Source: a virus
DNA: 64,000 nt
Virus record (IMG/VR): IMGVR_UViG_3300042923_001771
Span: 64,001 to 128,000 of that record
Reading direction: 5' to 3' (one strand)
The translations under genes and the position numbers were made by a program. Below, in pieces: positions 1-32,850 of the stretch. How positions within the stretch are numbered: the first letter of the stretch is position 1; every line of letters begins with the position of its first letter. Under the pieces are notes generated by a model. The model worked only from the letters and a program-made list of their open reading frames with translations. It had not been told where the DNA came from and searched no databases.

Positions 1-37
1 GAGACGAAGAAAAAGCATCTTGAGGAGGAATACAAAA

Positions 38-526
38 ATGAGTTCTAGTTATGTTGTGATTGGTAAATTTTCAGAAATTAATTTTGATGAAGTGATAATG
101 AAAACTAAAGAGGGATTCAAAGTTGATAAAAAGAAGTTGAGAATTATTGCAGCAACAATTCTTTCTGCGGTTGTTATTGGTCTTCTTTCCGATGTTGCAT
201 TTGCAGCGGAAGTTCACTCAACATTTGCTGGTTTTGACCAAGGTGCAGTGGCAGCGATGGCAAATGTTCAACCTAAACCAACTCAATTGGAACATATTTT
301 TGAGTATATTAGATGGTTGATTCAACTCTTAAGATTAATTGTAAGTAGCGTTGCAGGGTTGATTTGTACCTTTGCTGGTTATAAATGGTCTACAACAATT
401 GACGGAAATGGAGCAGAAACCGCTAAGAAAATTTTGAAAAATGCATTTGTAGGTGGTTTAATAGTTTTCTCCGGTACTACAATTGCTGATTTCTTTGTTG
501 GTAAAATGGAGCAAATTCTAAACTAA
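38..526 (+). CDS. T4SS pilin-like membrane protein (VirB2/TrbC type)
   Basis: The 162-residue protein has a charged N-terminal stretch, a signal-peptide-like hydrophobic segment ending in an AFA-AE cleavage-like site near residue 57, and two further hydrophobic helices (about residues 88-112 and 132-152). That layout matches VirB2/TrbC pilin-like subunits, which form the pilus or channel component of type IV secretion. The ATG at 38 is chosen because TGAGGAGG lies 9-10 nt upstream; an in-frame TTG at 20 sits before that site. The gene opens a tight run of membrane proteins leading to VirB4 and VirD4-like ATPases, which is the main support. Codons of an upstream gene may end at 21-23 or 46-48, but the window edge hides it. 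Family assignment rests on topology and context, not on a conserved motif. Confidence 0.55.
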   Translation: MSSSYVVIGKFSEINFDEVIMKTKEGFKVDKKKLRIIAATILSAVVIGLLSDVAFAAEVHSTFAGFDQGAVAAMANVQPKPTQLEHIFEYIRWLIQLLRLIVSSVAGLICTFAGYKWSTTIDGNGAETAKKILKNAFVGGLIVFSGTTIADFFVGKMEQILN

Positions 527-538
527 GGAGCGATACAA

Positions 539-688
539 ATGGATATTAATTATGAAAAAACTATTAGATATACTATTGCTATAACTTGTGGCTTAGTTGG
601 ATTCGCCATTACTTATGTCATTCTTGGATTGGCTATTCAACCAATCCAAGAATGGGTTGACAATAAAACTATAAAGGTGGTAAAATAA
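539..688 (+). CDS. Small single-pass membrane protein in the T4SS operon
   Basis: This 49-residue protein has one hydrophobic helix (about residues 9-32) followed by a short polar tail ending VDNKTIKVVK. Its ATG follows AAGGAG with good spacing and lies 13 nt after the pilin-like gene; its TAA abuts the next ATG. Small one-helix proteins between the pilin and channel genes are common in conjugation operons, but no family is recognised. Confidence 0.6.
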   Translation: MDINYEKTIRYTIAITCGLVGFAITYVILGLAIQPIQEWVDNKTIKVVK

Positions 689-838
689 ATGTTTATAACT
701 TCTGCTGTTATTGCTACTGGTTTTCAGGTAATTATCGCTGTACGCGTTGGTATTTCTACATTTAAAATGGTGAATGTTACACTTAAAAAAAGGACTGAAA
801 AAAAAGACGTAAAGAAAGTAAAAACGATTAAGGAGTGA
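689..838 (+). CDS. Small membrane protein with basic tail in the T4SS operon
   Basis: The 49-residue protein begins directly after the previous stop codon. It has an N-terminal hydrophobic helix (about residues 3-22) followed by a strongly basic tail (TLKKRTEKKDVKKVKT), so the tail probably faces the cytoplasm. AAAGGTGG before the ATG serves as binding site, and its last codons carry the ribosome binding site of the following channel gene. It is probably an accessory subunit of the same secretion complex; no family is recognised. Confidence 0.55.
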   Translation: MFITSAVIATGFQVIIAVRVGISTFKMVNVTLKKRTEKKDVKKVKTIKE

Positions 839-842
839 GGAC

Positions 843-1787
843 ATGCCAGATATGAAAATTCCATTTGTAGATGATGCCCTCAACTCTTGGGTGCAAGAAC
901 ATATTGTTGGACATTTAGCTGATCTTTTTCATCTCCTATCTGATAGCTTGCAGACCGGCGCAAATTCTTTTTTATCTGAAATGCTGGGGTTTGTACTTCA
1001 AACCCCTTTGATTGCAGCAAATCCAGTGATACTTCAAATATGGGCAATTGTCCGTGTAATTTCATTTTCAATTATAGGGTTGATGTTTGTTTGGGAAGCA
1101 TTTAAAAAAATAATTTCTTCAGATAATGTGATAAGACATGTTGAGTTTAAAGAGATGTTTATAAGAATGGTGTATGGTATTATTTTGGCAGTATTTAGTT
1201 TAGATATCATAGATATGATGATTGGTCTTGATAATGCATTAGTTAACACTGTCAAAAATGCTTTTCCCATCATTGTAAACAACAGCATAACTGTGAATGG
1301 TACTTTTAGTTTTATAATGACATTAGTTTTAATTGTTGTTCAAATTGTTTTGGGTGTCAAACTTATGATTCAATATTGGATGAGGATGGCTGAAATATGG
1401 TTAATGGCTGTTTTGGGGCCGTTGATGTATACTCTTTGGATAAATCCAAAATGGGGTGGTTATTTAAGTTCATGGGTAAGTAGATTAACCACTAATATAT
1501 TTACAACATTTGTTTGGGCACTTATAATTTCTTTATATTCTGGTATGGTCAGTATTGTAGCATCAACTGGGATGTTGATAGGGTTTCCAACTCTTGGTCC
1601 AATCGCAGGTATTTGTTTATCGATTGCATTGTTGCTAGTCATGATAGAGACGCCGGATTTCTTAAGGCAACATCTTGCTAGTGGTAAAAATCCAATAGCT
1701 ATGATTAAGAGTACAGTAAATAATGTTAGAAATAGTACACCACTACGTATTACTAAGAGAGCTGCAGGATGGATGTTGAAAAAATAA
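843..1787 (+). CDS. VirB6/TrbL-like polytopic channel protein
   Basis: This 314-residue protein carries about six hydrophobic helices spread from residue 55 to 275, with a short amphipathic N-terminus and a basic C-terminal tail (about residues 280-314). VirB6/TrbL-type proteins form the inner-membrane channel of type IV secretion systems and usually sit between pilin and VirB4 genes, as here. The motif around MAVLGPLMYTLWI followed by a Trp/Ser-rich loop is typical in style of Gram-positive TrbL-like proteins, though no single residue is diagnostic. Start ATG 843 follows GGAGTGAGG. A terminator follows immediately, so the first four genes form one transcription unit. Confidence 0.65.
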   Translation: MPDMKIPFVDDALNSWVQEHIVGHLADLFHLLSDSLQTGANSFLSEMLGFVLQTPLIAANPVILQIWAIVRVISFSIIGLMFVWEAFKKIISSDNVIRHVEFKEMFIRMVYGIILAVFSLDIIDMMIGLDNALVNTVKNAFPIIVNNSITVNGTFSFIMTLVLIVVQIVLGVKLMIQYWMRMAEIWLMAVLGPLMYTLWINPKWGGYLSSWVSRLTTNIFTTFVWALIISLYSGMVSIVASTGMLIGFPTLGPIAGICLSIALLLVMIETPDFLRQHLASGKNPIAMIKSTVNNVRNSTPLRITKRAAGWMLKK

Positions 1788-1799
1788 TAAACAATCTCC

Positions 1800-1836
1800 A
1801 AACCCTGACTAATTACATACAGGGTTTTTATTTTTT
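1800..1836 (+). terminator. Rho-independent terminator after the VirB6-like gene
   Basis: A stem of AACCCTG (1801-1807) and CAGGGTT (1820-1826) is followed by a T-rich run. It separates the pilin/channel unit from the PrgI/VirB4 unit. Confidence 0.8.
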
Positions 1837-1903
1837 CTGAATAATGTCTCTTTTGCCTATTGATGAATATAATTTTATTATAAGGACATAAGGAGGAATT
1901 AAT

Positions 1904-2284
1904 ATGAATGAAGACATTTGTCTCATACCAAGAAATTTAAGAAAAGCAGATACAATCATACAAACGCCAATAAAATTAACAATGAAACAACTTGTTTATA
2001 TTGGTATCGGTATTGGCGGAGCTTATTTTGCTTATGGCGCAGCGTTGCCTCTATTATATAAAGGTTTAATAATGGGTGGTAGTGCTTTAGCTGGAGTTGC
2101 TGGAGGTCTTTTTAAATATCAAGGTTCGTCAATTGATGAATTAGTTGGTGATAGTGTAGTATACGTTCAAAGAAAATCTTATTACAACAAATTAAATAAA
2201 AGGAGTGAGGTAGTTGTTAATATCAATTCTAGAAAAGAAGAAACAACCATCATTGGTGCAAGATCAATCTCTTTCACCGTTTAG
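1904..2284 (+). CDS. PrgI-like conjugation membrane protein
   Basis: The 126-residue protein starts with a short soluble segment containing the IPRNL motif, then two adjacent hydrophobic helices (about residues 30-68) and a soluble C-terminus. This is the layout of the PrgI family, a small membrane protein encoded just before VirB4 in Gram-positive conjugation systems and thought to anchor the ATPase at the membrane. It has AAGGAGGAATTAAT ahead of the ATG. Its last 71 nt overlap the start of the VirB4 gene, which implies translational coupling. Gene order and topology agree, so the call is fairly firm. Confidence 0.7.
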   Translation: MNEDICLIPRNLRKADTIIQTPIKLTMKQLVYIGIGIGGAYFAYGAALPLLYKGLIMGGSALAGVAGGLFKYQGSSIDELVGDSVVYVQRKSYYNKLNKRSEVVVNINSRKEETTIIGARSISFTV

Positions 2285-3926
2285 TCCTCCAAAAAATAGA
2301 GCGGTTTTTAAAGTATCTTCTGTCAATTTTGGGTTTAAATCAATGGATGATAAAATGATGCTTATTGAAAATTTTGGAAAATTTCTAAATTCATTAAACT
2401 TCCCAGTTCAAATACTTTGTGATAGTAAGACAGTTAATCCAGATGAGTGGTTGTTAAAAATACATGATGAAGAATATTATCAATTCTTAAAAGATACAAT
2501 CAATAGTAAGAATGTCACTGAAAAAACGTTTTATATAGCATTTACTGCTAGTGATGAAGTTGAACTTGGTATGCTTAAGAACAATATTAGAAATCATGTA
2601 AAACGTTGTAATTTAATTTGTGAAGAAATTGTTCCTCATGAACCACAAGCTATACCTCAATTGAGTGTAAATCATGTTAAGGTTGGAGAATGGTATCACT
2701 CTACTTTTATAGTTAAGAATTGGCCACATAGCGGTTCTGCTGGATGGTTAGAAGATTTGTACAATTTGGATAAAAACATTTCACTTTCTATGTTTATACA
2801 TCCAGTTCCAAAAGACGAAGCTGTAAAATACATTGGAAGACAATTGGCTAAACTCGGTTCAAGCGTTGTTATAAAAGAACAAGAGTCATGTCACGATGGA
2901 TTAGAAGATGAAGACATTGTAACAGCTATCAATATGCGAGATGAGCTTAATAAGAATGAAGGTAGATTTGTATTTGTAAGCTATTACATTACAGTAAAGG
3001 CAAAAAGTGTAACTGAACTCAAGAAAGATATTAAATATGTAAAAACCATCTTAAGCGGTATGATGATAGAAACAAAACAAGCGACACTTAGACAAGATGA
3101 TGCTTTTAGGTGTTCATTGCCACATGGTGTAGATTATTTAAAAAACAAGGCAATGTATACATTCACCACTACCCCATTGAAAAGATTTTTTCCATTTATA
3201 TCTGCAAACATTGTAGACAAAGGTGGGATTCTAATTGGTGAAAATCTACTAAATAGCTCATTAATTTTCTTGGATCATTTCAGTTATCAAACAGCAAGTA
3301 TGCTTGTAATTGGTAAAGCTGGTTCTGGTAAGTCATATGCTGTGAAAGCTCAGATAGAGAAACTCATTAGGCAAGGCATTGAGGTAACAGTTTTAGATAT
3401 TGAAGATGAGTTCTCTAGAATGCATCCACATCGCAATTTAATAATCAAACATTACGGTAAAACACCTAATGAAGAGTACAAAAAATTTCTTTTCAAATAT
3501 TGGGAAAAGGTTAATGCAGATTCAAGCATACCTAGATTTTTAGTTATCGATGAATTTTGGTGGCATATGAAAGACCCAGAAATTGCTCAACTTCTTCAAA
3601 TGATAGTAAAGCTTAGTAGAAAACGCTGGCTTGGGTTATGTGTAATTACTCAAGAGGTTTATGACATGCTCAGAAATGAATTTGCTGAAAGTATTGTTAA
3701 TAATTGTAGCATTAAGATTTTACTTAAAATTGAGCCCAATCAGAGAGAAAGCGTTCAGAAAACATTTGGTCTAACAAATAGTGAAGTTTCATTCTTGATT
3801 GGTGCGATAGAAGGTGAGGGGATACTCTTTGCTGGATCAAATCATGTACAGTTTAAAACAATTACTTCACCAGAGCAACATAAACGAATTACTACTAAAC
3901 CTCAAGAATTACATTTGGCAATCTGA
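2214..3926 (+). CDS. VirB4-like conjugation ATPase
   Basis: A 570-residue protein with a Walker A loop GKAGSGKS (about residues 367-374) and a Walker B strand FLVIDEF (about 442-448), followed by motifs of the RecA-like fold (VITQEVYDML). The N-terminal half of about 340 residues lacks P-loop motifs and corresponds to the region with which VirB4 proteins contact the channel. VirB4 powers assembly of the secretion apparatus at the membrane. The start is a TTG at 2214 that follows AAGGAGTGAGG inside the 3' end of the PrgI-like gene. At 570 residues it is on the short side for VirB4, but both nucleotide-binding motifs are intact. Confidence 0.85.
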   Translation: MLISILEKKKQPSLVQDQSLSPFSPPKNRAVFKVSSVNFGFKSMDDKMMLIENFGKFLNSLNFPVQILCDSKTVNPDEWLLKIHDEEYYQFLKDTINSKNVTEKTFYIAFTASDEVELGMLKNNIRNHVKRCNLICEEIVPHEPQAIPQLSVNHVKVGEWYHSTFIVKNWPHSGSAGWLEDLYNLDKNISLSMFIHPVPKDEAVKYIGRQLAKLGSSVVIKEQESCHDGLEDEDIVTAINMRDELNKNEGRFVFVSYYITVKAKSVTELKKDIKYVKTILSGMMIETKQATLRQDDAFRCSLPHGVDYLKNKAMYTFTTTPLKRFFPFISANIVDKGGILIGENLLNSSLIFLDHFSYQTASMLVIGKAGSGKSYAVKAQIEKLIRQGIEVTVLDIEDEFSRMHPHRNLIIKHYGKTPNEEYKKFLFKYWEKVNADSSIPRFLVIDEFWWHMKDPEIAQLLQMIVKLSRKRWLGLCVITQEVYDMLRNEFAESIVNNCSIKILLKIEPNQRESVQKTFGLTNSEVSFLIGAIEGEGILFAGSNHVQFKTITSPEQHKRITTKPQELHLAI

Positions 3927-3942
3927 GACAATAGGAGGTATT

Positions 3943-4017
3943 CTGTTTATTGCGGGATTGATGTTTCTATTTTCTAAAAAGCATAATTTAAGCGTAAGTA
4001 GAAAAAGGAGGAAATAA
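3943..4017 (+). CDS. Possible very small membrane protein
   Basis: A reading frame downstream of VirB4 encodes a short hydrophobic stretch (FIAGLMFLFS) followed by a strongly basic end (KKHNLSVSRKRRK). ATAGGAGG at 3930-3937 would fit a non-ATG start at CTG 3943, ATT 3949 or TTG 3958; the exact start is uncertain and the product would be only 19-25 residues. The ribosome binding site of the next gene lies in its last codons. It resembles the other tiny one-helix proteins of the operon, but it could also be just an open frame. Confidence 0.3.
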   Translation: MFIAGLMFLFSKKHNLSVSRKRRK

Positions 4018-4019
4018 GA

Positions 4020-4244
4020 ATGGACTTGTTGATGAATTACGAAGAGGCATGTGAACTTATCAGAAATAATGGTTGGGATGATTTTTTAGCTTTGTTGAAT
4101 GAGAAATTTCCAAAATACAACCTCAAAGGTTGTAGCATGTCATGGTATGAAGAAAAAGATGGTTCTAAATTTATTTGCAAGGCTAAAGGTTCGCGTGGGG
4201 ATGTAATTGTTGGTTGGTATGGTGTGCATGATAAAGCTATGTAA
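4020..4244 (+). CDS. Hypothetical protein, T4SS operon
   Basis: The 74-residue soluble protein has no membrane segment and no recognised domain. It has a strong AAAGGAGG site ahead of its ATG and ends just before a terminator, so it is the last gene of the PrgI-VirB4 unit. Two Trp-Tyr motifs (SWYEEKDG, GWYGVHDK) frame a small beta-rich C-terminal half. Function unknown. Confidence 0.65.
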   Translation: MDLLMNYEEACELIRNNGWDDFLALLNEKFPKYNLKGCSMSWYEEKDGSKFICKAKGSRGDVIVGWYGVHDKAM

Positions 4245-4255
4245 AGATATTTTTG

Positions 4256-4286
4256 AAAAAGAGAGTAAACACTCTCTTTTTTTTAT
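4256..4286 (+). terminator. Rho-independent terminator
   Basis: AAAGAGAGT and ACTCTCTTT arms around a four-base loop, followed by eight or more T, close the PrgI-VirB4 transcription unit. Confidence 0.85.
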
Positions 4287-4352
4287 TTGGTCTCTTTTTA
4301 ACATATGTGAATAAAATATATTAATAAGGTAATATTGAAAGGAGAATCAACA

Positions 4353-6848
4353 ATGTTCAAAAACAAAAAACAACAACCAGAAGAAAAAACTATACTTAAA
4401 TTGGAAAACGACATTGATTCAACAGCGGATGATAAAAGTAGCGATATGGATAGTTTTTGGGGTAGTATAAATGGTCTTCAAACAAAGAAAGAAAAACCAA
4501 CATTCTCATTTGAAATTTTGAGCAATAACGAAGGTGCAGCATTTTACTTTTCTATTCCAACAAAATTCAAAGGAATTATTGGAAAAAGACTAAATGCGGT
4601 ATATCCAGATATTGAAGTAATTGATATTAAAGAAGATAAGAACGATCCGGTTTCTTCTTTTAGAAATTTGAAAGAAGGTGAGCATACTTACAGTTGTGAA
4701 TTGCGATTAACTGAACATCAAGCATTTGGATTAAGAACTTCTGGAGTGCATAAGACTTTTCTTAATAATTTACTTAATACAATGAATCACTATAACGAGG
4801 AAGAAGTTTCGTTAATTCAAATAGTGATGAGACCAAGAACTGAACAATCTAATGCGAGAGCTGCAGCAAGAAGTACAAGTATCAAACGAAATTCATTCAA
4901 ACATCGAAATCCAGCATTTCGTTCATTGATGTTTGTGTTAGAAATTATTGTAAATTCCTTAATGTTTGTAGTAGATACTCTATTAACTAAAGGTCAATTA
5001 AAGAAAGCGTTTGATGAAACGGCAGTAACTGTAACAACTGGAAGTAGTAAGATTAAAGAAAAGGAAAACAAATTTAAAAAACCTTGTTTTGATGTATCGA
5101 TAAGAATAGCAACTAAATCTAAAGACTTAATAGTGGCAGAGCAAACCGCAATAAGCATATCAAATGTTTTCAAAGAATTGGATGATGAAAACAAACTTAG
5201 ACCAATTAAGATTAATATTAATTCAATAGCTGAAAGAGAAATGAAAAAGGGTAAAGCTTTTTCAAGTAATGAAATTTCTCAATTTGCTTATCTGCCTGGT
5301 AAAAATGTTTCGTCAAGTAATGTTGATAAGGGCGGAGTTAAGATGCCTTATGACAAGAATGTTCCTAATAAAGGCATTGTATTTGGATATTCTCCACAAC
5401 AAGGTAACAGATTAGTGGCATTTCCTATGAATGTGATCTCTAAAGAAAAGTATGATGAGCTCTATCAAGAATATGAAAAAATGATTGACAATATTTGCAA
5501 ACCAAGATTAGTGCTTGGAATGATGGGTACTGGTAAATCTGAATGGATTGTAAACTATACTCTTTCTCTCATTGAGGCGGGAGTTGCAGTTATTCTGGTT
5601 GACCCTAAAAATGATACTCAAAAGAGATTAATTGAATCTATGCCAGAAAATAAGCTTGAAAAAATTGACTACTTGGACCTTGGAGATTTATTGTTCCCGC
5701 CAGGTATGAACTTATTACGTCGTAGAAACCCTGGTGACCCAACCGAAATATCACTCATTGTTCAGTCATTAATTAGTTTCTTTAAAAAGGAATTTGGAAG
5801 GTCTTGGGGTTTTGCAATGCAACAATTAATCATGATGACTGGTAATGCTATTTTACTTGATGAAGTTGCTACATTGTATGAATTCCAATTAATGCTTACC
5901 AACAAAGAATATCGTGGCAATATGATTGAAAAAATTGATGAAAGGTTAAAGGACCCAACGGTTGGCGGTAGAGCAATGTTGAAAGAATTACATGCCTTTT
6001 GGAAACAATTTCATAGTTGGCCTGAAAAAGATCAAATGGCTAGAATTAGCTCAACAATGAATAAAGTCGGAGTGTTTATGAGTAACCGTATTGTTAGAGC
6101 GATAGTATCGCAGAAAGGAAGTTACGATTTTAGAAAATCTGGAGATGCTGGTAGAGTCACAATAGTTAACATTCCAGATGGAGAGTTGGGAGACGAAAAT
6201 ACAAGATTATTAGCGTCGTTTATCAATAAGGCTGTTTGGTTAGATTTTCGTTCTAGAGCTAATATTCCAATTGAAAAACGTTATCCAACTGTATGGCTTA
6301 TTGAAGAAGCTCATATGGTAATGGATGAAGAATTTATACCCATACTTACACAATCTCGAGGATATCGTCTTGGTCTGACCGTTTTAACACAAGGTCTCAA
6401 TAACTTTGAAAGTAGAGGAAACGGAGAACTAAAAGATATTCTTTTAACTAACTGTAAAAATAAAATTGTATTCCGTGTTGGACCAGCTGATGCTAGAATA
6501 CTTGCAGAAGAATTTGCACCACTTACAGCATATGATTTGATGAACTGCCCAGATTATCATTTCTATTCAAAGATACTCCTTGAAGGTGGTAAGGTATCAG
6601 AGGCATTCTTTGCGCATGCTCCAGACATGGCACCAGAGCTAAGAAGTTACGACAAATATAAAGAAAATCATCGTTCTGGTAAGATGACAATTGATCAAAT
6701 TGAAGACCAACTTGATACTCGTCATAACTTAACTGATGCAACTACTATTTCAGTAATTAATCTTGGAGAGGGTGAATCACAAACTCCAGATGAAAGACCA
6801 TCTAAGAAAAAACCTGGAATGAAAAAAGCATTAGAGTTTTTAGAATAA
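4353..6848 (+). CDS. VirD4/TraG-like T4SS ATPase (coupling-protein type)
   Basis: An 831-residue protein with an N-terminal region of about 190 residues, a hydrophobic hairpin near residues 188-208, and a HerA/FtsK-class motor domain. Walker A is GMMGTGKSE (about 389-397) and Walker B is VWLIEEAH (about 645-652), followed by SRGYRLGLTVLTQG, typical of conjugation coupling ATPases. Such proteins bring DNA or protein substrates to the secretion channel. The ATG at 4353 is chosen because AAAGGAG lies just upstream; an in-frame TTG at 4335 precedes that site. The C-terminal 60 residues are polar and probably disordered. Its own terminators on both sides make it a separate transcription unit. A DNA-packaging role cannot be excluded, but the VirB4 neighbour argues for secretion. 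Confidence 0.75.
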   Translation: MFKNKKQQPEEKTILKLENDIDSTADDKSSDMDSFWGSINGLQTKKEKPTFSFEILSNNEGAAFYFSIPTKFKGIIGKRLNAVYPDIEVIDIKEDKNDPVSSFRNLKEGEHTYSCELRLTEHQAFGLRTSGVHKTFLNNLLNTMNHYNEEEVSLIQIVMRPRTEQSNARAAARSTSIKRNSFKHRNPAFRSLMFVLEIIVNSLMFVVDTLLTKGQLKKAFDETAVTVTTGSSKIKEKENKFKKPCFDVSIRIATKSKDLIVAEQTAISISNVFKELDDENKLRPIKININSIAEREMKKGKAFSSNEISQFAYLPGKNVSSSNVDKGGVKMPYDKNVPNKGIVFGYSPQQGNRLVAFPMNVISKEKYDELYQEYEKMIDNICKPRLVLGMMGTGKSEWIVNYTLSLIEAGVAVILVDPKNDTQKRLIESMPENKLEKIDYLDLGDLLFPPGMNLLRRRNPGDPTEISLIVQSLISFFKKEFGRSWGFAMQQLIMMTGNAILLDEVATLYEFQLMLTNKEYRGNMIEKIDERLKDPTVGGRAMLKELHAFWKQFHSWPEKDQMARISSTMNKVGVFMSNRIVRAIVSQKGSYDFRKSGDAGRVTIVNIPDGELGDENTRLLASFINKAVWLDFRSRANIPIEKRYPTVWLIEEAHMVMDEEFIPILTQSRGYRLGLTVLTQGLNNFESRGNGELKDILLTNCKNKIVFRVGPADARILAEEFAPLTAYDLMNCPDYHFYSKILLEGGKVSEAFFAHAPDMAPELRSYDKYKENHRSGKMTIDQIEDQLDTRHNLTDATTISVINLGEGESQTPDERPSKKKPGMKKALEFLE

Positions 6849-6861
6849 AATTGGTAAAGAT

Positions 6862-6885
6862 GGAGCCGAAAGGCTCCTTTTTTAT
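6862..6885 (+). terminator. Rho-independent terminator
   Basis: GGAGCC and GGCTCC arms (6862-6877) followed by T6 close the VirD4-like gene. Confidence 0.85.
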
Positions 6886-6976: not shown

Positions 6977-7750
6977 ATGACAACAATTGTAGATATGACA
7001 TGTTTAAAATCATCGCACTCTCCTATTTTGAGTAACGAAGAAACAATTGAATTATTTAATAAACTTAAATTTAAAAACGACGAATCAGCAAGAGATAAAT
7101 TAGTTTATTCCAATACTGGATTAGTATTAAGTGCTCTTAAGAAATTTAAAAATAGAGGAGAAAATATAAACGATTTATTTCAAATCGGTTGTATTGGCTT
7201 AATTAAAGCAGTTGATAGATTTGACCTTGCTAGAGAATTAAAATTTTCAACATATGCAGTATGGACGATTGACGGTGAAATTAAAAGATATCTACGAGAT
7301 GATTCTGCAATTAGAGTAAATCGTAGTTCAAAAAACATGTTGTACAAAATTAATAGGGCTAAAGATCAATTTGTTATAGAGAATGGTAAAGAACCAACTA
7401 ACACAGAAATTGCAGATAAATTAGGCGTAAAAGAAAAAGAAATTACAAACACCTTACTTTCTTTACAACCAATAGCATCACTATCTGAACCAGTAGATAG
7501 CGATAATGGAAAAGTATCATTGATAGACAAAATTGACGATAAAAAGATAAGTGAAGAATTAACTTTGAATAGTATTGCTTTAAGTGAAGCAATTAAGAAA
7601 TTAAATGAAAAAGAACAAAAAGTAATTAGTATGAGATATTTTTTAGATAAAACTCAAGCCGAAATAGCTAGCGAATTCGGAGTTTCTCAAGTTCATATTA
7701 GTAGATTAGAGAAAAATGCTATTAAAGAAATGAAGAAGTATATGTGCTAA
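6977..7750 (+). CDS. Sigma-70 family factor, SigF/SigG-like
   Basis: The 257-residue protein has the full alternative-sigma layout. Region 2 contains NRGENINDLFQIGCIGLIKA, FSTYAV and GEIKRYLRDD followed by IRVNRS; region 3 contains PTNTEIADKLGV; region 4 ends with a helix-turn-helix TQAEIASEFGVSQVHISRLE. The region 2 sequence closely follows the forespore sigmas SigF and SigG of Bacillota as I know them. It should redirect host RNA polymerase to a subset of phage promoters. It has AAGGAGGAG before its ATG, its own promoter and its own terminator, so it can be expressed independently of both neighbours. A candidate target is the 30-bp element repeated in 46-62 kb. Confidence 0.9.
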   Translation: MTTIVDMTCLKSSHSPILSNEETIELFNKLKFKNDESARDKLVYSNTGLVLSALKKFKNRGENINDLFQIGCIGLIKAVDRFDLARELKFSTYAVWTIDGEIKRYLRDDSAIRVNRSSKNMLYKINRAKDQFVIENGKEPTNTEIADKLGVKEKEITNTLLSLQPIASLSEPVDSDNGKVSLIDKIDDKKISEELTLNSIALSEAIKKLNEKEQKVISMRYFLDKTQAEIASEFGVSQVHISRLEKNAIKEMKKYMC

Positions 7751-21801: not shown

Positions 21802-23577
21802 ATGCCGTATAAAAAACCTGGTGCGTATGCACGATTTGTAAGAACTACAGGAGCTGTGAATAACGCTGGTTCGTCTAGAGTTATGGCTATTGTTGGTACA
21901 GGTAAATTGTTTTTTGACAAATTAAATGAGCCTATTTTAAGACAAACAGATTCTATTTCAGATTTATTAGGTAAAGAAAATGTGTATGAAATTCATCATG
22001 TTACTTCTAAACCGTTAAAAAATGGAGCTGTTGATGATACTGGCATTGAATACAAAGTTCGCAAAGGTACTGATCCAGTATATGACTTAGAGTTAAAAGA
22101 CGGTAAGTACATTTCATGGAAAGTTGGAACTGCTGCTGCAGTAAGTTTGCCAGTTAGCTCAGGCACTGAAGGTTCAGATAAATTTGCTACTGTAGTACAC
22201 GCATCTAAAGGACAAGAGCATTTAATTGTTGATGGTCAATACAAAATAGAAATCACTTATATTGATACCGATGCTACTGATGCTACTAATTTTGGAACAT
22301 ACGCAGTGATCGACATGGCAACAAACCAGGTACTTGGTGAATATCAAGTAGGTAATGATACTGTTGATATTATTCCTGGTATTCAAATGTTCGTAACTGA
22401 CACGTTTTTCCAAAAAATGAGTGAAGACGCAACTCCTGTACCTATCGTTGGTGAATCAATTTCAGCTCCTGGTGATTATGTTATCATTAACACTACATCT
22501 GCTGGTTCAGCCGTTGGAGCAGTTGCTGATGGTTCAGTTTACTATGTAAGTTACGCATACAAAAAAGCAGAAGAAGATTTCAATCCAAAATTGTTCACGG
22601 ATTATCAAGATCTTGTTGCTGAGTATGGAGATTATGATGTTACTGTTTCTGGTAAAGTTACTAATTCTCTATCATTAGGTGCAGAAATTGCATTTATGAA
22701 TGGAATGAATCCAATTGTTTGTGTACAAGCTAAAAATGATAGCGATTATTCTATGAAACTTGCAATTGATCTTTTAGAAAGAGACGTTGCTGGTGTTGAT
22801 AACATCAATACTATCATACCTCTAACAACTTCTAAAATAGTTGCAGCTCACGCAATGAGTCACGTTAATAAAATGTCACTTTCTACAATTGGTAAAGAGC
22901 GTATGACTTACATCGGAGCTCCAACTAATGAAAAGTACACTGATTCCGCTCAAGCAGCTAGCGATTTCAATGATGAGCGTTTAGTTTACGTTGTTCCAGG
23001 TTCTGCTACAAAATCAGTTAGAGACACTGTAACGGGTAGAATTTCTGTAAAACGTGTTCCTAGTTCTTTCTTAGCAGTTGCTGTTGCAGCTCTTGGTTTG
23101 AAAAATGACCCAGCTGAACCGCTTACAAACAAATTCATCAGCGGCTTTGATGCTATTGGTACACCTTACGCTGAAAGCGAAAAGAATGTCATGGCTGAAA
23201 AAGGTTGCTTAATTTTAGAACAACAAGGTCCAAACGTTAAAGTTCGTCACGGTATGACAACTTTTGTTGCTGAAGTTAATAGCAATGAAATTACATTGGT
23301 TCAAATTAAAGACTATGTAATTGAAGCTGCTCGTAAAACACTTGGTAATGTCTATGTTGGTAAAAAACTTATGCCATCCATTGTTAATGATGTTCAACTT
23401 ACGTTGACTAACGTCTTAAATCAATTTGTTGGCCAACAAGTTATCTTAGGATACAGCGGTGTTAGCGTTAGACGTTCAAAAGATGACCCACGTGCTATCG
23501 ATGTTAGATTTGAAATCGAAGCAGTATATCCGTTGAACTACATTAACATTGAATTCTCCTTCTCAGGTATCAACTAA
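21802..23577 (+). CDS. Contractile tail sheath protein
   Basis: The 591-residue protein has the signature layout of phage sheath subunits: an N-terminal arm (PYKKPGAYARFV), a variable central insertion, and a conserved C-terminal domain (RKTLGNVYVGKKLMPSIV followed by NVLNQFVGQQVILGYSG and AIDVRFEIEAVYPLNYI). The N- and C-terminal arms knit neighbouring subunits into the sheath that contracts during injection. GGGGG precedes the ATG, and codon use suggests strong expression. A perfect 18-bp inverted repeat follows the stop. Confidence 0.92.
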   Translation: MPYKKPGAYARFVRTTGAVNNAGSSRVMAIVGTGKLFFDKLNEPILRQTDSISDLLGKENVYEIHHVTSKPLKNGAVDDTGIEYKVRKGTDPVYDLELKDGKYISWKVGTAAAVSLPVSSGTEGSDKFATVVHASKGQEHLIVDGQYKIEITYIDTDATDATNFGTYAVIDMATNQVLGEYQVGNDTVDIIPGIQMFVTDTFFQKMSEDATPVPIVGESISAPGDYVIINTTSAGSAVGAVADGSVYYVSYAYKKAEEDFNPKLFTDYQDLVAEYGDYDVTVSGKVTNSLSLGAEIAFMNGMNPIVCVQAKNDSDYSMKLAIDLLERDVAGVDNINTIIPLTTSKIVAAHAMSHVNKMSLSTIGKERMTYIGAPTNEKYTDSAQAASDFNDERLVYVVPGSATKSVRDTVTGRISVKRVPSSFLAVAVAALGLKNDPAEPLTNKFISGFDAIGTPYAESEKNVMAEKGCLILEQQGPNVKVRHGMTTFVAEVNSNEITLVQIKDYVIEAARKTLGNVYVGKKLMPSIVNDVQLTLTNVLNQFVGQQVILGYSGVSVRRSKDDPRAIDVRFEIEAVYPLNYINIEFSFSGIN

Positions 23578-26154: not shown

Positions 26155-29100
26155 ATGGCGGAAAACAATAACGGGGGAATTTTCGGCAACAAGGGTAACG
26201 GAGACTTTCTTAAGAATCTAAAAAATGAAGTTAACAATAATGCTAACGATATTTCTATGACTCTTGATAAGGTCTTGCGAAGCATTTCTGATTTTAAAGA
26301 TGAAGTCGAAAAAGAAAAAATATCCCTCAATATTGATACATCATATTCTCAAAAAATTGAGAGAATGTTATCTGATTTAGAAAATGATTTTAATAGACTT
26401 ATTGCTCCAGTAAAAGGTAAAATTCAACAGCAAATTTCTGAAGTTTTTTCTTCTGACAATGTAAAGACTGATGGATTAACTAAGGAATTAAATGTTTTCT
26501 CAGACGCATTATCGGGATTTGCAACTAAGGTTAATCAGTTGAGTTCTGAAATTGGAGTTAACTTAGGTTCTGCTTTTGAAAATCTTAATAAGGAAACAGT
26601 TGAGACTTTAAGATCATTTTCTGATATTTTAGCTCAATTACAACAAAGAGATTTAAAAATCAACAACCCCTTCCCTGAAATAATTGCGTCACTTGATGAA
26701 ATTGCAAAAAGAACTCAAAGCATTGGTAGTTTTAACGATGTTTTAAGTAGTATTTTGAATATTCCTGTTGAGCATGGAACGGCTTATCATTTACTAGAAT
26801 TATCTGATAGTTTGGATATTTTTAATAAGACAATGAGAGGCACAACAGATGATGATATAACTAAAATAACTTCATACATTAATGAATTAGAAAAATTAAG
26901 TCAAAAAACTCAAGTTTTCACAGATATTGCTGATAGCATCAAAAGCCTTTCTGTTATTGGAGATATTGCGAAGCAAGTTAATGATTTAAATAGTGCACTT
27001 ACTGCACTTGGTCAAAACAGCAATCTCGGAGCATTAGTTGGTGGTAGTTTTAATGTACCACCAATACCGCAAGGGCCAATCAATATTCCTCCAGCAATAC
27101 CGCCAAGTGGCGGAGGAGGAGGCGGTGGGGGTAATGCAGGTGGTGGAAATCCTGGACCTAGTGGTGGCGGTTACAATGGACCGACCAGTTCATATCCAAG
27201 CCAAGTCATAGTTGGTCCTCAGCCATTTACTCCACAGTATTCGTCTAGTGCGCATGATAAGACGTTTGATGCTATTGAAAAAGCGTTATCTAAATTACAA
27301 CTTAATAATATGTCTGGTGGATCTTGGCACGATAAGTCTAGTAAAAACTTAGATAATGAATCAATTAAAGAAATGATGCAAGTTTTAGAGCAAATTAAGT
27401 ATGATTCAAGTAAATTGAGTGCTTGGGAAGGTCAGTTTAAGCATGCTAGTTCTAACCACGATAAGAGTGGTGCAGAGGCAGCGCTTATGCAAATGAACGA
27501 GTACAGAGCTAAAGTAGTACAAGGAAATTCACAGTTACAAGGCAATCTAGACAATATTGGTCCCAAAGATTTAGGTAAATATCCATCAGAAGTTAGAGAT
27601 ATATTTACTAACATGAAGGATTTTCAACAAGTTATTCAAAATATAATGATAAATCAGTTTAAGTTTAACGAACACTTTGGACTCAACCAATTCAATAAAG
27701 AAATTCTTGATGCCAATAGAGGAATTAATGACTTTGCTAGAAACATAGAAAATCAACCTTGGGATAGAATAAAAGGCAAATTAAGTTCTGCTTTTGACCC
27801 AATTAGTAAATTTACTAGCGGATTAAAAGGTGGAGTAACTGGTGGGTTAGGTATGCTTGGTCTTGGTTCTCTAGGTTCTGCGCTTAGTATTGGTGGATTG
27901 GCTGGTGGAATTACTGATATTTATCAAAGACAAGGTAGACTCTTAGCTGATTCTGCTCAAGGAGAAATATTAGGTGGATACGATTATGATCCGCAAAATA
28001 CAAGACGAATTCTTAGACAAGGCTTAGATTATCAACATTCCACTCACGGAAGAATTCAACAAGAAGACTACTTAAACAGCTATACATCTCTTGTTAATAA
28101 TGTTAGAGGTCACTTTGGCGGTCAAGATGGTTCCGATAAGGCTTCAGCGCAAAGAGATATGGAAAGCTTTGCAAGTACTGCTACAGTTATGCAAGGTATG
28201 GGAGTTTCTCAGGGAACAACTATGTCAGCAATTACTACGTTTTATAAAGAATTGGGTATGAGCGCGAAAGAAACTGATTTCCAATTGGTTAAAATTGCGC
28301 AAACAGCTCAATCTTTAAATGTGCCGTTCGAAGAGCATTTAAAAGCAGTAACAAACTTAGCTACTGAATATAAAGCCATTGGTTTGTCAGCAGATCAAGC
28401 TGGAAATGTAATGGGTAACTTAATGTTTAAAGGTGGTATGACATCAACTGAGGCTGGTAGATTTGCTAGTAATGTTGGTGGAGCTCTAACCAATATGAAT
28501 GAGGGTTGGTTGGCATATGGCGCTGGTATGATGGGTGATGATCCATTAGAAGCAATCATGGATTTAAACTATGGTTATAAAGATGATGGCACAATGAAAG
28601 AAGGAGTTGCTGAAAAGAAAGCGCAAATTCTTACAAATAACTATCAAATGTTTGGTGGCGTCGGCGGAGATGGTGGACGTTATGGCATGAAAGAAGCACT
28701 TAAAGCTATGGGTATTACTGACAACAGAGACGTAGCTAAGTTCTTAAATCATGCTGGTGATGAAAAATGGTTAGTGAATCAATTTAAAGAGATGGATGGT
28801 AAAGCAGGTCTCGGAGATCTTAGTGAAGATAACGCGAAAGATAAACTTACAAGTGGTATATTAGGAGATCTCGGTAAAGCGTCAGATCAACTTTCAGGTA
28901 TAGATAAATCTTTAAATGCTTATAACGAAGTACTTAAGAGGGTAGTTGACGATCAACGCGGTTTATTGGATGAATTGACTGATTTTACTGGAATAATTGA
29001 AAAATTTGGTTCTATGATAGAAAAAGTTATTGGCGGGATGGGGAATCTTTTAGAAACACTTGGGAAACTCGCTAATATGGATTTATCTACCATTGCTGCT

Positions 29101-32100
29101 TTGGGCATTGGAGGGGCAGGCGTACTTGGTGGCTTAGCATCCGCTGGTGGTAGTGCTTTTGTAATGAATAAAGTTTTGAAAAGATTCCGTGGAAGCGGAG
29201 GAGGTAGTGCTGGACCTACTGGTGGCGGAGCTGGAGGAGCAGGTGGCCCAACTAGAGCTCAAGGTGGCGGAGGTGCTGCTGGAAGACCAAGTTGGCTTAA
29301 AAGTTTAACAAAAAGTAAGAGTGGAAAACTTGCCATAGCAGGAGCTGCAGGTTTAGCTGGTTGGGGAGCATATGAGTATTTTGCTGGAGATAGAGCTAGC
29401 GCTGCTACAGATGATGGTGGAGGAGACGATGGATCTGGAGGTATATTTGGTAATATCTACCGAGTACTTCAGGATATCCTTGCAGCACTCGGCGGTGGCG
29501 GAGTTGTTAGTGCTAGTGGCATTGGTGGAGGTGGTGGGAGACCTTCGGTTGATGCACTTGCTGATGTTTCTGGCGTACATGATATTGGTACAAATCCGTG
29601 GTTAGCTACTGGTGTTGCGCTTGGTGGTACTTATGCAGCAACAAAAGTGGGTTCTTCAATACTAAGTAGAATGTCTACACAAGTTCCAGCTAGTGTTTCT
29701 GGAGCGAGTGGAGGTGCATTATCAAGAGTAGCTACAGCTGCAGCATCAAGACCTAGCGCTTGGTCAAAATTGCTTAGTGGTGGTAAATCTAGTGGAGTTG
29801 CAGCTGGTATTTTTAATTCAATTGGTGCAGGTTTTGAAATGCATGATAACTATGAATTAGATGCCCTTTATGGTATTGAAAACCATGGAAGATCTAATGC
29901 AAACACTTGGGGTAAAGCTGCTATCGGTACTATTGGTTCTATAGCTGGTGGTGCACTTGGTACATTAGTTGCTCCTGGCATTGGAACAGTCGGTGGGGCA
30001 ATAGCTGGTGGTATGTTAGCTGATCACTTTAGTGATAACATTATGGGTTTATTTGGCGCTGGTAGTAAAGATATTGAAGAAGATAGAATGAAAAACCCTC
30101 TTTACAAATCTACTCAAGAATTTATGAGAAGAAACGGCGTATCCAATGAAGCTTTTGCTGTTACAGCTTCTAAAGGTATGATGCAATATGGTGGTAGCCT
30201 TGCAAACTTTAGTGAAGCTGAAAGAGACCAATGGGGAGCTAAATTTGCAGAAGGTAAAGGTTCTGGCCTAACTGATGAAGCGGCAAAAGAACAAGCAAAT
30301 CAAATGTTTAGGTTGAATATTACTAACGATGATATTAAAAACTTAAATGCTGAACAACTGCAAAATGGGTTAGAGCTTTCTAAATCAACAGACCAATATC
30401 AAAAAGATTTCGCTAAATATAAAGAAGATTTTGGTAAAAATAACGAAGCAACAAATAAGATTATTGATGAAACAAAAAGCAACACTGGACTTTCACTTAC
30501 TAAGTTGTATGAATTATATGATGTTGCTTCTAATATGCCTGGAGATTTAGCTGCTGCAATTAAAGCTTCAGGTGGACTTGGAAATATGGATGACCCAGGT
30601 AAAATAGAGAGAATGAGAAAGCAACTTGAAGCTGGCGGTTTAGACGTAAAGCAACAAGAAAGAGCTATGGCTGGTTATCTTGATAATAAAGATTTCCTTA
30701 AGAGTTCGATGCAATCCGAAGAAGAAAGAAATAATTGGTTAAGATTGTACTCTATGGATCCATCTTGTCTTCCTCCAGGTACTGACATGTTTGAATATGC
30801 TAACAATAACATAAATCTTAGCAGAAAGACTCAATCATTAATGAGTGGCGGTCTCTTAGGTGATTTTCAAAAGTTTGCTGGTTCAAAAGATGGTCAATTG
30901 TTTATGAACGATTCAGCAAATTCATTACCTTCTCAATTTTCTAGTTGGGACAGTATGATCAAAAAATACACTAAAGAATCAGATATTGATAGCTCAGAAC
31001 TTAAAAAAATTCTAAGTAAAAATCACATTTCTGAAGAACAGTTCGGCAAGTATCTACTTGCGAATGATGGTGGAGGAAACTTCGGTGCAACAAACATAGC
31101 TGGTATTAATAAAGATTATATCAGTAATGGATTCACTGCAGTTGGAGAAGAAAAAAGCAAGGTAGCACAAGAAGTGAAGAAACAAAACGAAGAACAGCAC
31201 AAAGAAGCTGAAAAGACTAAAAAAGAGTTAACTGAAGAAACTACCAAAGCACAAGATGATATCTTCAAGCAAGGTGAAGAAGCTGCTTTGAGTCGCAGTA
31301 AAGATTATGTATCAGCGCTGAAAACATTGCAAGATTTCTTGGGCGACAGTATTAAGAACGTATGGAACAAGCTACAAGATATCAATCAAACAGCAAGTGA
31401 TGCAGTAGTTGAACTTCGTAAAATGGCTTCTTCAGGTGGTTCTGGTGGTGGTCAAACGGGGTTAGGTGGAACTGGTAAATTTGGTTCATCCGTAAATCAA
31501 TGGGATGAATTGATTCAAAAAGTTGGAGCTGAAACAGGAATAGACCCATTGATTCTTAAAACTATCATGCAAAAAGAATCTGGTGGAAATGCAAACGCCA
31601 AAGACAATCAAAATAAAAATGGTACATTTGATATGGGATTAATGCAAATCAACAGTGATACTGCTAAGGGTTATGGTTTTGATTTTGATAAACTGCGTAG
31701 TGACCCAGAGTATGCTCTTAGATCGGCAGCTAAAGTAATACAAGGTAAAAAAACCATGTTGAGTGGTATGGGAGAAGACTCTAACGACCCACATAATATT
31801 TTTCATGCATACAATGGTTGGAGTGCTCAAGGCGGCAGATACGCTGATGATGCTATGGGTTACTTTGACGCTGCTGGCCGTGTTGGAGGATCGGGTGGAG
31901 GCTTTAACGCTTTACTTGGTGAATCAAGACAACTATCATCATCAGGTGCTCTTTCTTATAAGCAAGTTGGCGGAGAATTCAATGGTACTTATCAAGAATT
32001 CTTACAAAGAGGTTTGGCAGATTGTTCGCAATTCGTACAAGAAATGTATGGCAATTTCTTAGGAAAACAACTTCCAAGAACAGCTGCAGAACAATGGAAT

Positions 32101-32850
32101 GCTGGTACTTCAGTTGCTAAAGGACAAGAACAAACTGGTGATTTGGTATTCTGGAACACCACTGGAAAAGATCACTCTCACGTTGGTATGTATACTGGAA
32201 ACGGTAAAGCTATGCAAATGGGTACAAATGGACTTAAGGAAATAGACATTAATTCTATTGACAATTATGAAGGTGCTAGAAGAATTGGTGGTTCAGCTTT
32301 ATATGCTGGTCACAATAGTGCTTGGAACCCAATTACTGGCAAACTCGACGATATTCAGAAAAATACTGAAAAAGCTGCCGATGATGCAAAAAAAATAGCA
32401 GACAATACAGATGCAATCAAAGATAATACAACACCAGATAGCAGCACAAAAACATCATATAAAGCTCTCTTAACAAATATTGGTGAAAACGATCCTTATG
32501 CTGGTATAAACATCAAGGGCAACATGAACAACACAAAATATCTTTTTGACGCTTATGAAAAACTTAAAAGCAAGGGAATCGATTACGATGACCATGGCAA
32601 AGATAATCAAAAGTGGCAACAAGAGATGAGACATAACTTTGATGTTAAACTTAAAGTGGATTTCACAGACCCTGATAAGTCTCCTCAATTCCAAAAAATA
32701 TTAGATAAGCATCTCAATCTTGCAGTAAAAAATGCTATGGAAGAACATACAATGCAAGTTAGTAAAGATACTGAGTCTAGTAATCAAGCATTATGGAACG
32801 CTACAACAGCTAATTCAAAAGCAGTTCAACAAGGTAATTATGATGGATAG
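26155..32850 (+). CDS. Tape measure protein with lytic transglycosylase and NlpC/P60 domains
   Basis: At 2231 residues this is the longest gene and sets tail length. The N-terminal 300 residues are coiled-coil-like, followed by a Gly-rich linker (about 318-350), helical tape regions, hydrophobic Gly/Ala segments (about 560-590 and 970-1110) and two enzyme domains. A lysozyme-like SLT domain (about 1780-1880) shows MQKESGG with the catalytic Glu and MGLMQINSDTA. An NlpC/P60 amidase domain (about 1940-2050) shows ADCSQFVQ with the Cys and DHSHVGMY with the His. The enzymes cut the wall on injection. It starts at ATG 26155 after AGGACGGTGA. Confidence 0.93.
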   Translation: MAENNNGGIFGNKGNGDFLKNLKNEVNNNANDISMTLDKVLRSISDFKDEVEKEKISLNIDTSYSQKIERMLSDLENDFNRLIAPVKGKIQQQISEVFSSDNVKTDGLTKELNVFSDALSGFATKVNQLSSEIGVNLGSAFENLNKETVETLRSFSDILAQLQQRDLKINNPFPEIIASLDEIAKRTQSIGSFNDVLSSILNIPVEHGTAYHLLELSDSLDIFNKTMRGTTDDDITKITSYINELEKLSQKTQVFTDIADSIKSLSVIGDIAKQVNDLNSALTALGQNSNLGALVGGSFNVPPIPQGPINIPPAIPPSGGGGGGGGNAGGGNPGPSGGGYNGPTSSYPSQVIVGPQPFTPQYSSSAHDKTFDAIEKALSKLQLNNMSGGSWHDKSSKNLDNESIKEMMQVLEQIKYDSSKLSAWEGQFKHASSNHDKSGAEAALMQMNEYRAKVVQGNSQLQGNLDNIGPKDLGKYPSEVRDIFTNMKDFQQVIQNIMINQFKFNEHFGLNQFNKEILDANRGINDFARNIENQPWDRIKGKLSSAFDPISKFTSGLKGGVTGGLGMLGLGSLGSALSIGGLAGGITDIYQRQGRLLADSAQGEILGGYDYDPQNTRRILRQGLDYQHSTHGRIQQEDYLNSYTSLVNNVRGHFGGQDGSDKASAQRDMESFASTATVMQGMGVSQGTTMSAITTFYKELGMSAKETDFQLVKIAQTAQSLNVPFEEHLKAVTNLATEYKAIGLSADQAGNVMGNLMFKGGMTSTEAGRFASNVGGALTNMNEGWLAYGAGMMGDDPLEAIMDLNYGYKDDGTMKEGVAEKKAQILTNNYQMFGGVGGDGGRYGMKEALKAMGITDNRDVAKFLNHAGDEKWLVNQFKEMDGKAGLGDLSEDNAKDKLTSGILGDLGKASDQLSGIDKSLNAYNEVLKRVVDDQRGLLDELTDFTGIIEKFGSMIEKVIGGMGNLLETLGKLANMDLSTIAALGIGGAGVLGGLASAGGSAFVMNKVLKRFRGSGGGSAGPTGGGAGGAGGPTRAQGGGGAAGRPSWLKSLTKSKSGKLAIAGAAGLAGWGAYEYFAGDRASAATDDGGGDDGSGGIFGNIYRVLQDILAALGGGGVVSASGIGGGGGRPSVDALADVSGVHDIGTNPWLATGVALGGTYAATKVGSSILSRMSTQVPASVSGASGGALSRVATAAASRPSAWSKLLSGGKSSGVAAGIFNSIGAGFEMHDNYELDALYGIENHGRSNANTWGKAAIGTIGSIAGGALGTLVAPGIGTVGGAIAGGMLADHFSDNIMGLFGAGSKDIEEDRMKNPLYKSTQEFMRRNGVSNEAFAVTASKGMMQYGGSLANFSEAERDQWGAKFAEGKGSGLTDEAAKEQANQMFRLNITNDDIKNLNAEQLQNGLELSKSTDQYQKDFAKYKEDFGKNNEATNKIIDETKSNTGLSLTKLYELYDVASNMPGDLAAAIKASGGLGNMDDPGKIERMRKQLEAGGLDVKQQERAMAGYLDNKDFLKSSMQSEEERNNWLRLYSMDPSCLPPGTDMFEYANNNINLSRKTQSLMSGGLLGDFQKFAGSKDGQLFMNDSANSLPSQFSSWDSMIKKYTKESDIDSSELKKILSKNHISEEQFGKYLLANDGGGNFGATNIAGINKDYISNGFTAVGEEKSKVAQEVKKQNEEQHKEAEKTKKELTEETTKAQDDIFKQGEEAALSRSKDYVSALKTLQDFLGDSIKNVWNKLQDINQTASDAVVELRKMASSGGSGGGQTGLGGTGKFGSSVNQWDELIQKVGAETGIDPLILKTIMQKESGGNANAKDNQNKNGTFDMGLMQINSDTAKGYGFDFDKLRSDPEYALRSAAKVIQGKKTMLSGMGEDSNDPHNIFHAYNGWSAQGGRYADDAMGYFDAAGRVGGSGGGFNALLGESRQLSSSGALSYKQVGGEFNGTYQEFLQRGLADCSQFVQEMYGNFLGKQLPRTAAEQWNAGTSVAKGQEQTGDLVFWNTTGKDHSHVGMYTGNGKAMQMGTNGLKEIDINSIDNYEGARRIGGSALYAGHNSAWNPITGKLDDIQKNTEKAADDAKKIADNTDAIKDNTTPDSSTKTSYKALLTNIGENDPYAGINIKGNMNNTKYLFDAYEKLKSKGIDYDDHGKDNQKWQQEMRHNFDVKLKVDFTDPDKSPQFQKILDKHLNLAVKNAMEEHTMQVSKDTESSNQALWNATTANSKAVQQGNYDG

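Follow-up and report, generated by a model that had tools for sequence, protein, structure and literature searches.

Why would a giant phage keep, next to the genes of its contractile tail, a set of genes of the kind that makes a conjugation channel? The question is raised by a stretch of viral DNA of 64,000 nucleotides, here called the window, which is bases 64001-128000 of the 175,445-base record IMGVR_UViG_3300042923_001771; the rest of the record was also read. By sequence comparison, positions 38-6848 hold a near-complete conjugation-type type IV secretion system (T4SS) module whose component identities are well supported. An earlier note, made from the letters alone, had proposed such a module beside a contractile tail in a giant phage, and Pfam and NCBIfam profiles bore it out: the Walker motifs of the VirB4-like and VirD4-like ATPases are intact, the PrgI-like gene overlaps the VirB4-like gene, and VirB6-like and pilin-like proteins are present. 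We compared three records, namely the window's own, Bacillus phage G (Donellivirus gee) and IMGVR_UViG_3300005281_000068, hereafter the third relative. DNA movement by phages is regarded as distinct from that by conjugative elements, and a channel set inherited within a phage lineage would join the two.

The channel genes

All channel genes of the module lie on the plus strand, in the order T4SS_pilin/TrbC, two one-helix open reading frames (ORFs), TrbL_4, PrgI, VirB4, a 74-aa ORF and the VirD4-like ATPase (Table 1). The VirB4-like gene overlaps the PrgI gene by 71 nt, and its TTG start at 2214 is supported by the AAGGAG site in front of it. Its product retains Walker A (GKAGSGKS) and Walker B (LVIDEF) motifs and matched solved VirB4 and TrwK chains. 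The motifs of the VirD4-like protein are likewise intact (Walker A GMMGTGKS, Walker B LIEEAH), with a helical insert between the two, and its orthologue in phage G matched the CD1115 profile (5.4e-8). Foldseek matches of its AlphaFold model, to HerA, were not counted because the model was too poor (predicted local distance difference test, pLDDT, 42). At the front of the module, the pilin-like protein shows three hydrophobic segments where the earlier note had read two helices. It is 47% identical to phage G gp150 and 39% to its counterpart in the third relative; it scored 22.3 bits, below the Pfam cut-off of 26.6, and the orthologue gp150 scored 27.4 bits, above it. A promoter scan gave a site count no higher than in shuffles.

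Table 1. Features of the module and its flanks. Window positions equal the coordinates in piece L005 of the record minus 9000; L003 and L004, cited in the text, are other pieces of the same record.
Feature	Position	Strand	Evidence
Replic_Relax protein, putative relaxase	-2194..-1385 (L005:6806-7615)	-	PF13814, E 8.7e-25
Stand-alone M23 peptidase, N-terminal hydrophobic stretch	-1060..-524 (L005:7940-8476)		Pfam
PhageMetallopep-family gene, 3' end at 1..23	-426..23 (L005:8574-9023)	+	PF18894, 2.4e-10; gp149, 65%
VirB2/TrbC-like pilin-type protein, 162 aa	38..526	+	T4SS_pilin, E 1.4e-4; TrbC, 0.0019
One-helix membrane protein, 49 aa	539..688	+	gp151 counterpart
One-helix membrane protein, 49 aa	689..838	+	gp152 counterpart
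VirB6/TrbL-like polytopic membrane protein, 314 aa	843..1787	+	PF19597 TrbL_4, E 5.2e-11, 42.9 bits (cut-off 27); gp153, 64%
PrgI/VirB3-like protein, 126 aa	1904..2284	+	PF12666, E 2.4e-5, 25.2 bits (just under cut-off 27); gp154, 48%
VirB4-like ATPase, 570 aa	2214..3926	+	P-loop_TraG, 4.5e-16; CD1110 profile, 1.6e-53; gp155, 65%
67-aa ORF, one hydrophobic stretch, doubtful gene	3814..4017	+	overlaps VirB4 3' end
Soluble 74-aa ORF	4020..4244	+	no family match in Pfam/NCBIfam scans
VirD4-like coupling ATPase, 831 aa	4353..6848	+	SXT_TraD TIGR03743, 4.8e-11; gp156, 68%
Strong terminator-like hairpin closing the module	6862..6877 (L005:15862-15877)	+	GGAGCCGAAAGGCTCC then TTTTTT
Sigma-70-family gene	6977..7750		
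Tail sheath gene, start of contractile-tail block	21802..23577	+	Pfam sheath C-terminal domain, 1.2e-4; gp178, 52%

Conservation and age of the module

By its gene content the record represents a jumbo phage of the phage G type and is a fragment, not a whole genome, because 98 called genes, each with a phage G match over 80% or more of its protein and with a median identity of 56.5%, run collinear with about 27 to 190 kb of that cultured, complete 497-kb genome; Spearman's rho between the gene positions is 0.89. Phage G is recorded from Bacillus megaterium, and it was later reassigned to Lysinibacillus, according to the title of a reference cited in PMC13282480. Scans of IMG/VR for relatives returned phage G and one more close relative only. 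In bacterial genomes, one DNA pattern scan and a protein scan gave no true relative, an absence that is weak because both scans rely on short exact motifs.

The VirB2-, VirB6-, VirB3-, VirB4- and VirD4-like genes are collinear with gp150 and gp153-gp156 of phage G, at 47-68% identity. There the order runs gp146 (Replic_Relax, minus strand), gp149, gp150, gp151-gp152, gp153, gp154, gp155, gp156, PhoH and the sheath gene. The left part of the locus in the third relative comprises TubR-like, TubZ-like, VWA, Replic_Relax (minus strand) and metallopeptidase-like genes and small ORFs, and the right part comprises the pilin, a small ORF, TrbL, PrgI, VirB4, VirD4 and then the tail block. The adjacency that the earlier note had suggested seeking in other large phages was thus found in both relatives. 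Among the 98 genes shared with phage G, VirD4 ranks 16th in conservation, VirB4 26th and TrbL 31st. Both the GC content and the GC content at third codon positions (GC3) of the module match those of the tail genes, with GC3 equal to that of the sheath and tape-measure genes. Because VirB4 and VirD4 exceed the shared-gene median identity and GC3 equals that of these structural genes, the comparison indicates that the channel genes are old in the G-like lineage and belong to its vertically inherited gene set.

Kinship of the channel proteins

Among cultured phages, VirB4 found a strong match in phage G only; two Streptococcus records hold a distant TrsE-like protein, and the other matches were short faecal contigs. 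The TrbL match among cultured phages was also confined to phage G. VirD4-like proteins are more widespread, with 30 phage records found using the window protein as query and at least 68 using SPO1 27.4, nearly all of them from phages of Bacillales.

We built a tree of 19 VirD4-like proteins, in which the plasmid rows had been found with the window protein and most phage rows with SPO1 27.4, so that its sampling is biased, and its branches are long. The three G-like VirD4s grouped with plasmid coupling proteins of Embleya and Streptomyces (Streptomycetaceae), Sulfitobacter and Halorussus with support of 100/100. In approximately unbiased tests, a single clade of all phage VirD4-like proteins was rejected (p-AU 0.0012), as was a clade of the G-like and SPO1 proteins (p-AU 1.6e-5). 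On this tree the G-like VirD4 is akin to plasmid coupling proteins and not to the SPO1 gp27.4-like ATPases of Bacillales phages. A clade of the G-like proteins with Embleya and Streptomyces alone was rejected too (p-AU 0.0017), so that the kinship points to no single plasmid source.

Flanks of the module

To the left, the Replic_Relax gene is transcribed divergently from the channel genes and adjoins the module in all three phages. "Relaxase" is here a family label, and nicking is only putative. Alignment of phage, SPO1 and plasmid members revealed conserved PD, ExD and K residues. The model of the phage G protein has a pLDDT of 69, reaching at least 80 over most of the C-terminal domain, whose predicted order of elements, alpha-beta-beta-beta-alpha-beta, is that of PD-(D/E)XK nucleases. 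Its best Foldseek matches fell largely in this superfamily (VC1899, Shedu SduA, MunI, AddAB and Card1), weakly, with E values no lower than 0.003; HUH relaxases were not among them. The model supports, but does not prove, a winged helix joined to a PD-(D/E)XK-like nuclease instead of an HUH relaxase. In the divergent intergenic region of each of these phages, a hairpin is found about 150-180 nt away from the start of Replic_Relax; singly these are weak (P 0.07-0.18), and the phage G copy falls inside annotated gp147. The hairpin is only a candidate origin, of transfer (oriT) or otherwise.

The earlier note had supposed that a relaxase, VirB8 and a wall hydrolase might lie further left. Replic_Relax and M23 candidates do lie there, the former a relaxase candidate of an unusual kind, and no VirB8 was found with them. 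In phage G an M23 domain sits within the tape measure; in the window phage a related one forms a stand-alone gene beside the module, and the tape measure (26155-32850) has none. The domain may possibly have relocated between the two settings. The idea that tape-measure hydrolases substitute for a dedicated enzyme is weakened accordingly. The PhageMetallopep-family gene, whose metal motif appears degenerate, is conserved immediately before the pilin gene in each phage compared (L025:5002-5424 in the third relative).

Further upstream, L004:7448-8872 encodes a tubulin-family GTPase of the TubZ-like kind together with a TubR-like protein, small and winged-helix-like. The pair shares 52-66% identity with gp137 and gp138 of phage G, and each of the three phages has such genes upstream of its module. 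The earlier note had left a choice between a phage-plasmid and a giant phage. The latter stands, with phage G as nearest cultured relative; the former is not shown, for the tail block is joined by the TubZ/TubR-like pair, but no tyrosine integrase (PF00589) matched in the three records and no recognised plasmid replicon was seen. An upstream VWA protein, common to the window phage and the third relative, was left out of the module because phage G lacks it.

To the right, the sigma-70-family gene starts 128 bp past the VirD4 stop, much nearer than the 1.8 kb first given, and neither phage G nor the third relative has it in the corresponding position. It is probably a separate transcription unit, since the terminator-like hairpin precedes it. 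Elsewhere in the record, the ribonucleotide reductase genes (L003:14180-17591) show 27-30% identity to the phage G counterparts at the matching place, against a median of 56%, and have probably been replaced relative to phage G. A Thg1-like tRNA-His guanylyltransferase gene (L004:14189-14980) is present in the third relative and unmatched in the first 256 kb of phage G; a CTP synthase gene, identified by sequence (L004:4821-6632), is likewise unmatched there.

Possible function and alternatives

Our best reading, to which we give about an even chance, is that a conjugation-type type IV channel is made in the infected cell and moves nicked phage DNA across the envelope. The genes would be expressed during infection, when the VirB2-, VirB3- and VirB6-like and small one-helix proteins would assemble the channel in the host membrane, with VirB4 driving assembly and transport. 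The Replic_Relax protein would process phage DNA close to its own divergent promoter region, and VirD4 would dock the processed DNA on the channel and pump it outward. In the window phage the neighbouring M23 peptidase, or other hydrolases, would open the wall, and the TubZ/TubR-like pair may deliver the genome to the channel site. More tentatively, G-like jumbo phages might conjugate: a viral type IV channel, served by a relaxase of the PD-(D/E)XK type, would carry their DNA, alone or along with proteins, straight into neighbouring cells and offer a second route of infection that needs no virion; this we think possible and somewhat improbable.

Several observations weigh against the best reading. 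The Relaxase, Rep_trans and Mob_Pre families (PF03432, PF02486 and PF01076) matched nothing in the three records, and neither did VirB8 (PF04335, PF12642), of which a diverged copy is possible. The PD-(D/E)XK assignment depends on a model of pLDDT 69 and on Foldseek E values above 1e-3, and the M23 gene is without a positional counterpart in either relative. PrgI and the window phage's own pilin fall just under the Pfam cut-offs, and VirB4 reaches 182 bits against the CD1110 equivalog NF045971, far short of its 325-bit cut-off. Furthermore, related VirD4-like genes occur in other Bacillales phages without the channel, so that VirD4 and Replic_Relax can serve phages that have none. Since the search for a classical relaxase found none and the oriT is unproven, we do not place the module among conjugative elements. 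Movement by two routes, as the earlier note had it, keeps its conditional form, given the missing HUH relaxase, proven oriT and VirB8 and the many Bacillales phages whose VirD4-like proteins come without detectable VirB4 or TrbL.

These phages suggest a rather different role, in which the module acts inside the infected cell: VirD4 and Replic_Relax, on a membrane complex anchored by the VirB2-, VirB3-, VirB4- and VirB6-like proteins, would nick, tether, segregate or replicate phage DNA with the help of a cytoskeletal filament. In SPO1, a model lytic phage, a run of genes (L020:5250-11307) encodes pilin-like 29.1, ALP_N actin-like 27.9, the three one-helix proteins 27.5-27.7, VirD4-like 27.4 and Replic_Relax 27.3, and neither VirB4 nor TrbL was detected in it. 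ALP_N genes also stand upstream of VirD4-like genes in phages FADO, where Replic_Relax is present as well, and D6E. Directly before the VirD4-like gene, phage 031MP004 has a TrbC-like protein (6.5e-6), and several further phages have a small hydrophobic protein. Because runs of this type exist, we keep the intracellular role as a serious rival, if an unlikely one; the number of phage records with a 27.4-like ATPase and the TubR/TubZ-like genes upstream of the G-like modules also speak for it. Against it, the rejected clade sets the G-like VirD4 apart from that of SPO1, and the strong constraint on VirB3, VirB4 and VirB6 is hard to square with a mere anchor. Whatever their role here, VirD4-like ATPases across many Bacillales phages, often with pilin-like or actin-like neighbours, point to an unexplained common phage function. 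Several of them (L062, L063, L065 and L066) have an altered Walker A motif, GKD for GKS/GKT, and an altered Walker B, which suggests that ATPase activity is changed or lost.

Less likely still is a repurposed channel whose cargo is not DNA and which serves protein secretion, superinfection exclusion or lysis. Such repurposing is known from the archaeal Ced import system (PMC9905601), and the lack of an HUH relaxase and of a proven oriT would agree with it. By contrast, each of the three phages has a nuclease-like Replic_Relax gene adjoining the module, a plasmid counterpart has one adjacent to VirD4, and no effector or exclusion gene was recognised. PADLOC gave no defence match above the generic level shared by HerA/VirB4 ATPases, and a defence-system reading was rejected on that ground.

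That the VirB4-like protein is a DNA-packaging ATPase is very improbable. It matches phrog_2666, labelled "terminase large subunit", at 1.4e-166, but the large terminase of phage G is another protein, gp1 (Terminase_6N over its cut-off), and the VirB4 profiles, the solved VirB4 and TrwK structures and the overlap with PrgI all speak against packaging. The phrog_2666 label is wrong for its VirB4-type members, phage G gp155 and window 2214-3926, a database error that could mislead phage annotation. Packaging or repair families for the two ATPases and a chimeric join at 6.9-8.6 kb were the outcomes that the earlier note had named as fatal, and both were rejected: an assembly chimera or recent insertion of a conjugative element, conceivable beforehand in metagenomic contigs, has a negligible probability given the same T4SS-to-tail order in the complete genome of cultured phage G and in a contig of independent origin, the collinear gene positions and the uniform GC and GC3.

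Comparison with known systems

The closest profiles for VirB4, and for the VirD4 of phage G, are those of the CD1110/CD1115-type T4SS of integrative and conjugative elements of Gram-positive bacteria and mycoplasmas (NF045971, NF045973), in which PrgI likewise adjoins VirB4. Unlike these systems, the module scores well under the equivalog cut-offs and has no classical relaxase. A linear plasmid of Embleya sp. NBC_00896 carries TrbL_4, PrgI, VirB4, VirD4, Replic_Relax and NlpC/P60 in one run, its VirD4 matching T4SS-DNA_transf over the cut-off, and plasmid p1 of Streptomyces sp. BHT-5-2 has the same ORF order. The Embleya element differs in being a plasmid, in having proteins only about 24-30% identical and in placing Replic_Relax 3' of VirD4 on the same strand; MOB-suite types it as non-mobilizable. 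Pilin, PrgI, VirB4 and VirD4-like frames also occur on the 1.08-Mb megaplasmid pFDU301A of Priestia megaterium, where VirB4 and VirD4 are split over frames.

The SPO1 27.3-29.1 run and related genes of Bacillales phages resemble the module in joining a VirD4-like protein to pilin-like, one-helix, filament or Replic_Relax neighbours. They differ in that VirB4, TrbL and PrgI are undetected, VirD4 stands elsewhere in the tree and some Walker A motifs read GKD. The Ced system, a repurposed T4SS whose chromosomal archaeal genes import cellular DNA (PMC9905601), parallels the module as conjugation machinery outside plasmids, and CedB/CedD profiles match VirB4 weakly.

A study of huge phages relied on matches to genes for partitioning and conjugative transfer to tell plasmids and phages apart (PMC7162821). 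G-like phages hold genes of both kinds, and such genomes may have been discarded in surveys. Among open-licence papers on jumbo phages, a comparative study and a review and a survey, both of 2026, were searched and say nothing about VirB, VirD4, conjugation or a type IV system in this group; earlier reports elsewhere are possible. The nearest known system is phage G itself, whose gp146 and gp149-gp156 are the same genes in the same order at the same distance from the tail block, at 41-68% identity. It differs in lacking a stand-alone M23 gene here and in having an HNH gene in place of the sigma gene after VirD4. Its deposited annotation calls gp155 a "type IV secretory pathway protein; VirB-like" and gp156 only an "MsbA-like" ATPase. 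One component was therefore already known from GenBank; what appears new is that a jumbo-phage lineage has retained a T4SS of the conjugation type, and since phage G has been cultured for decades, the question can be tested there at once.

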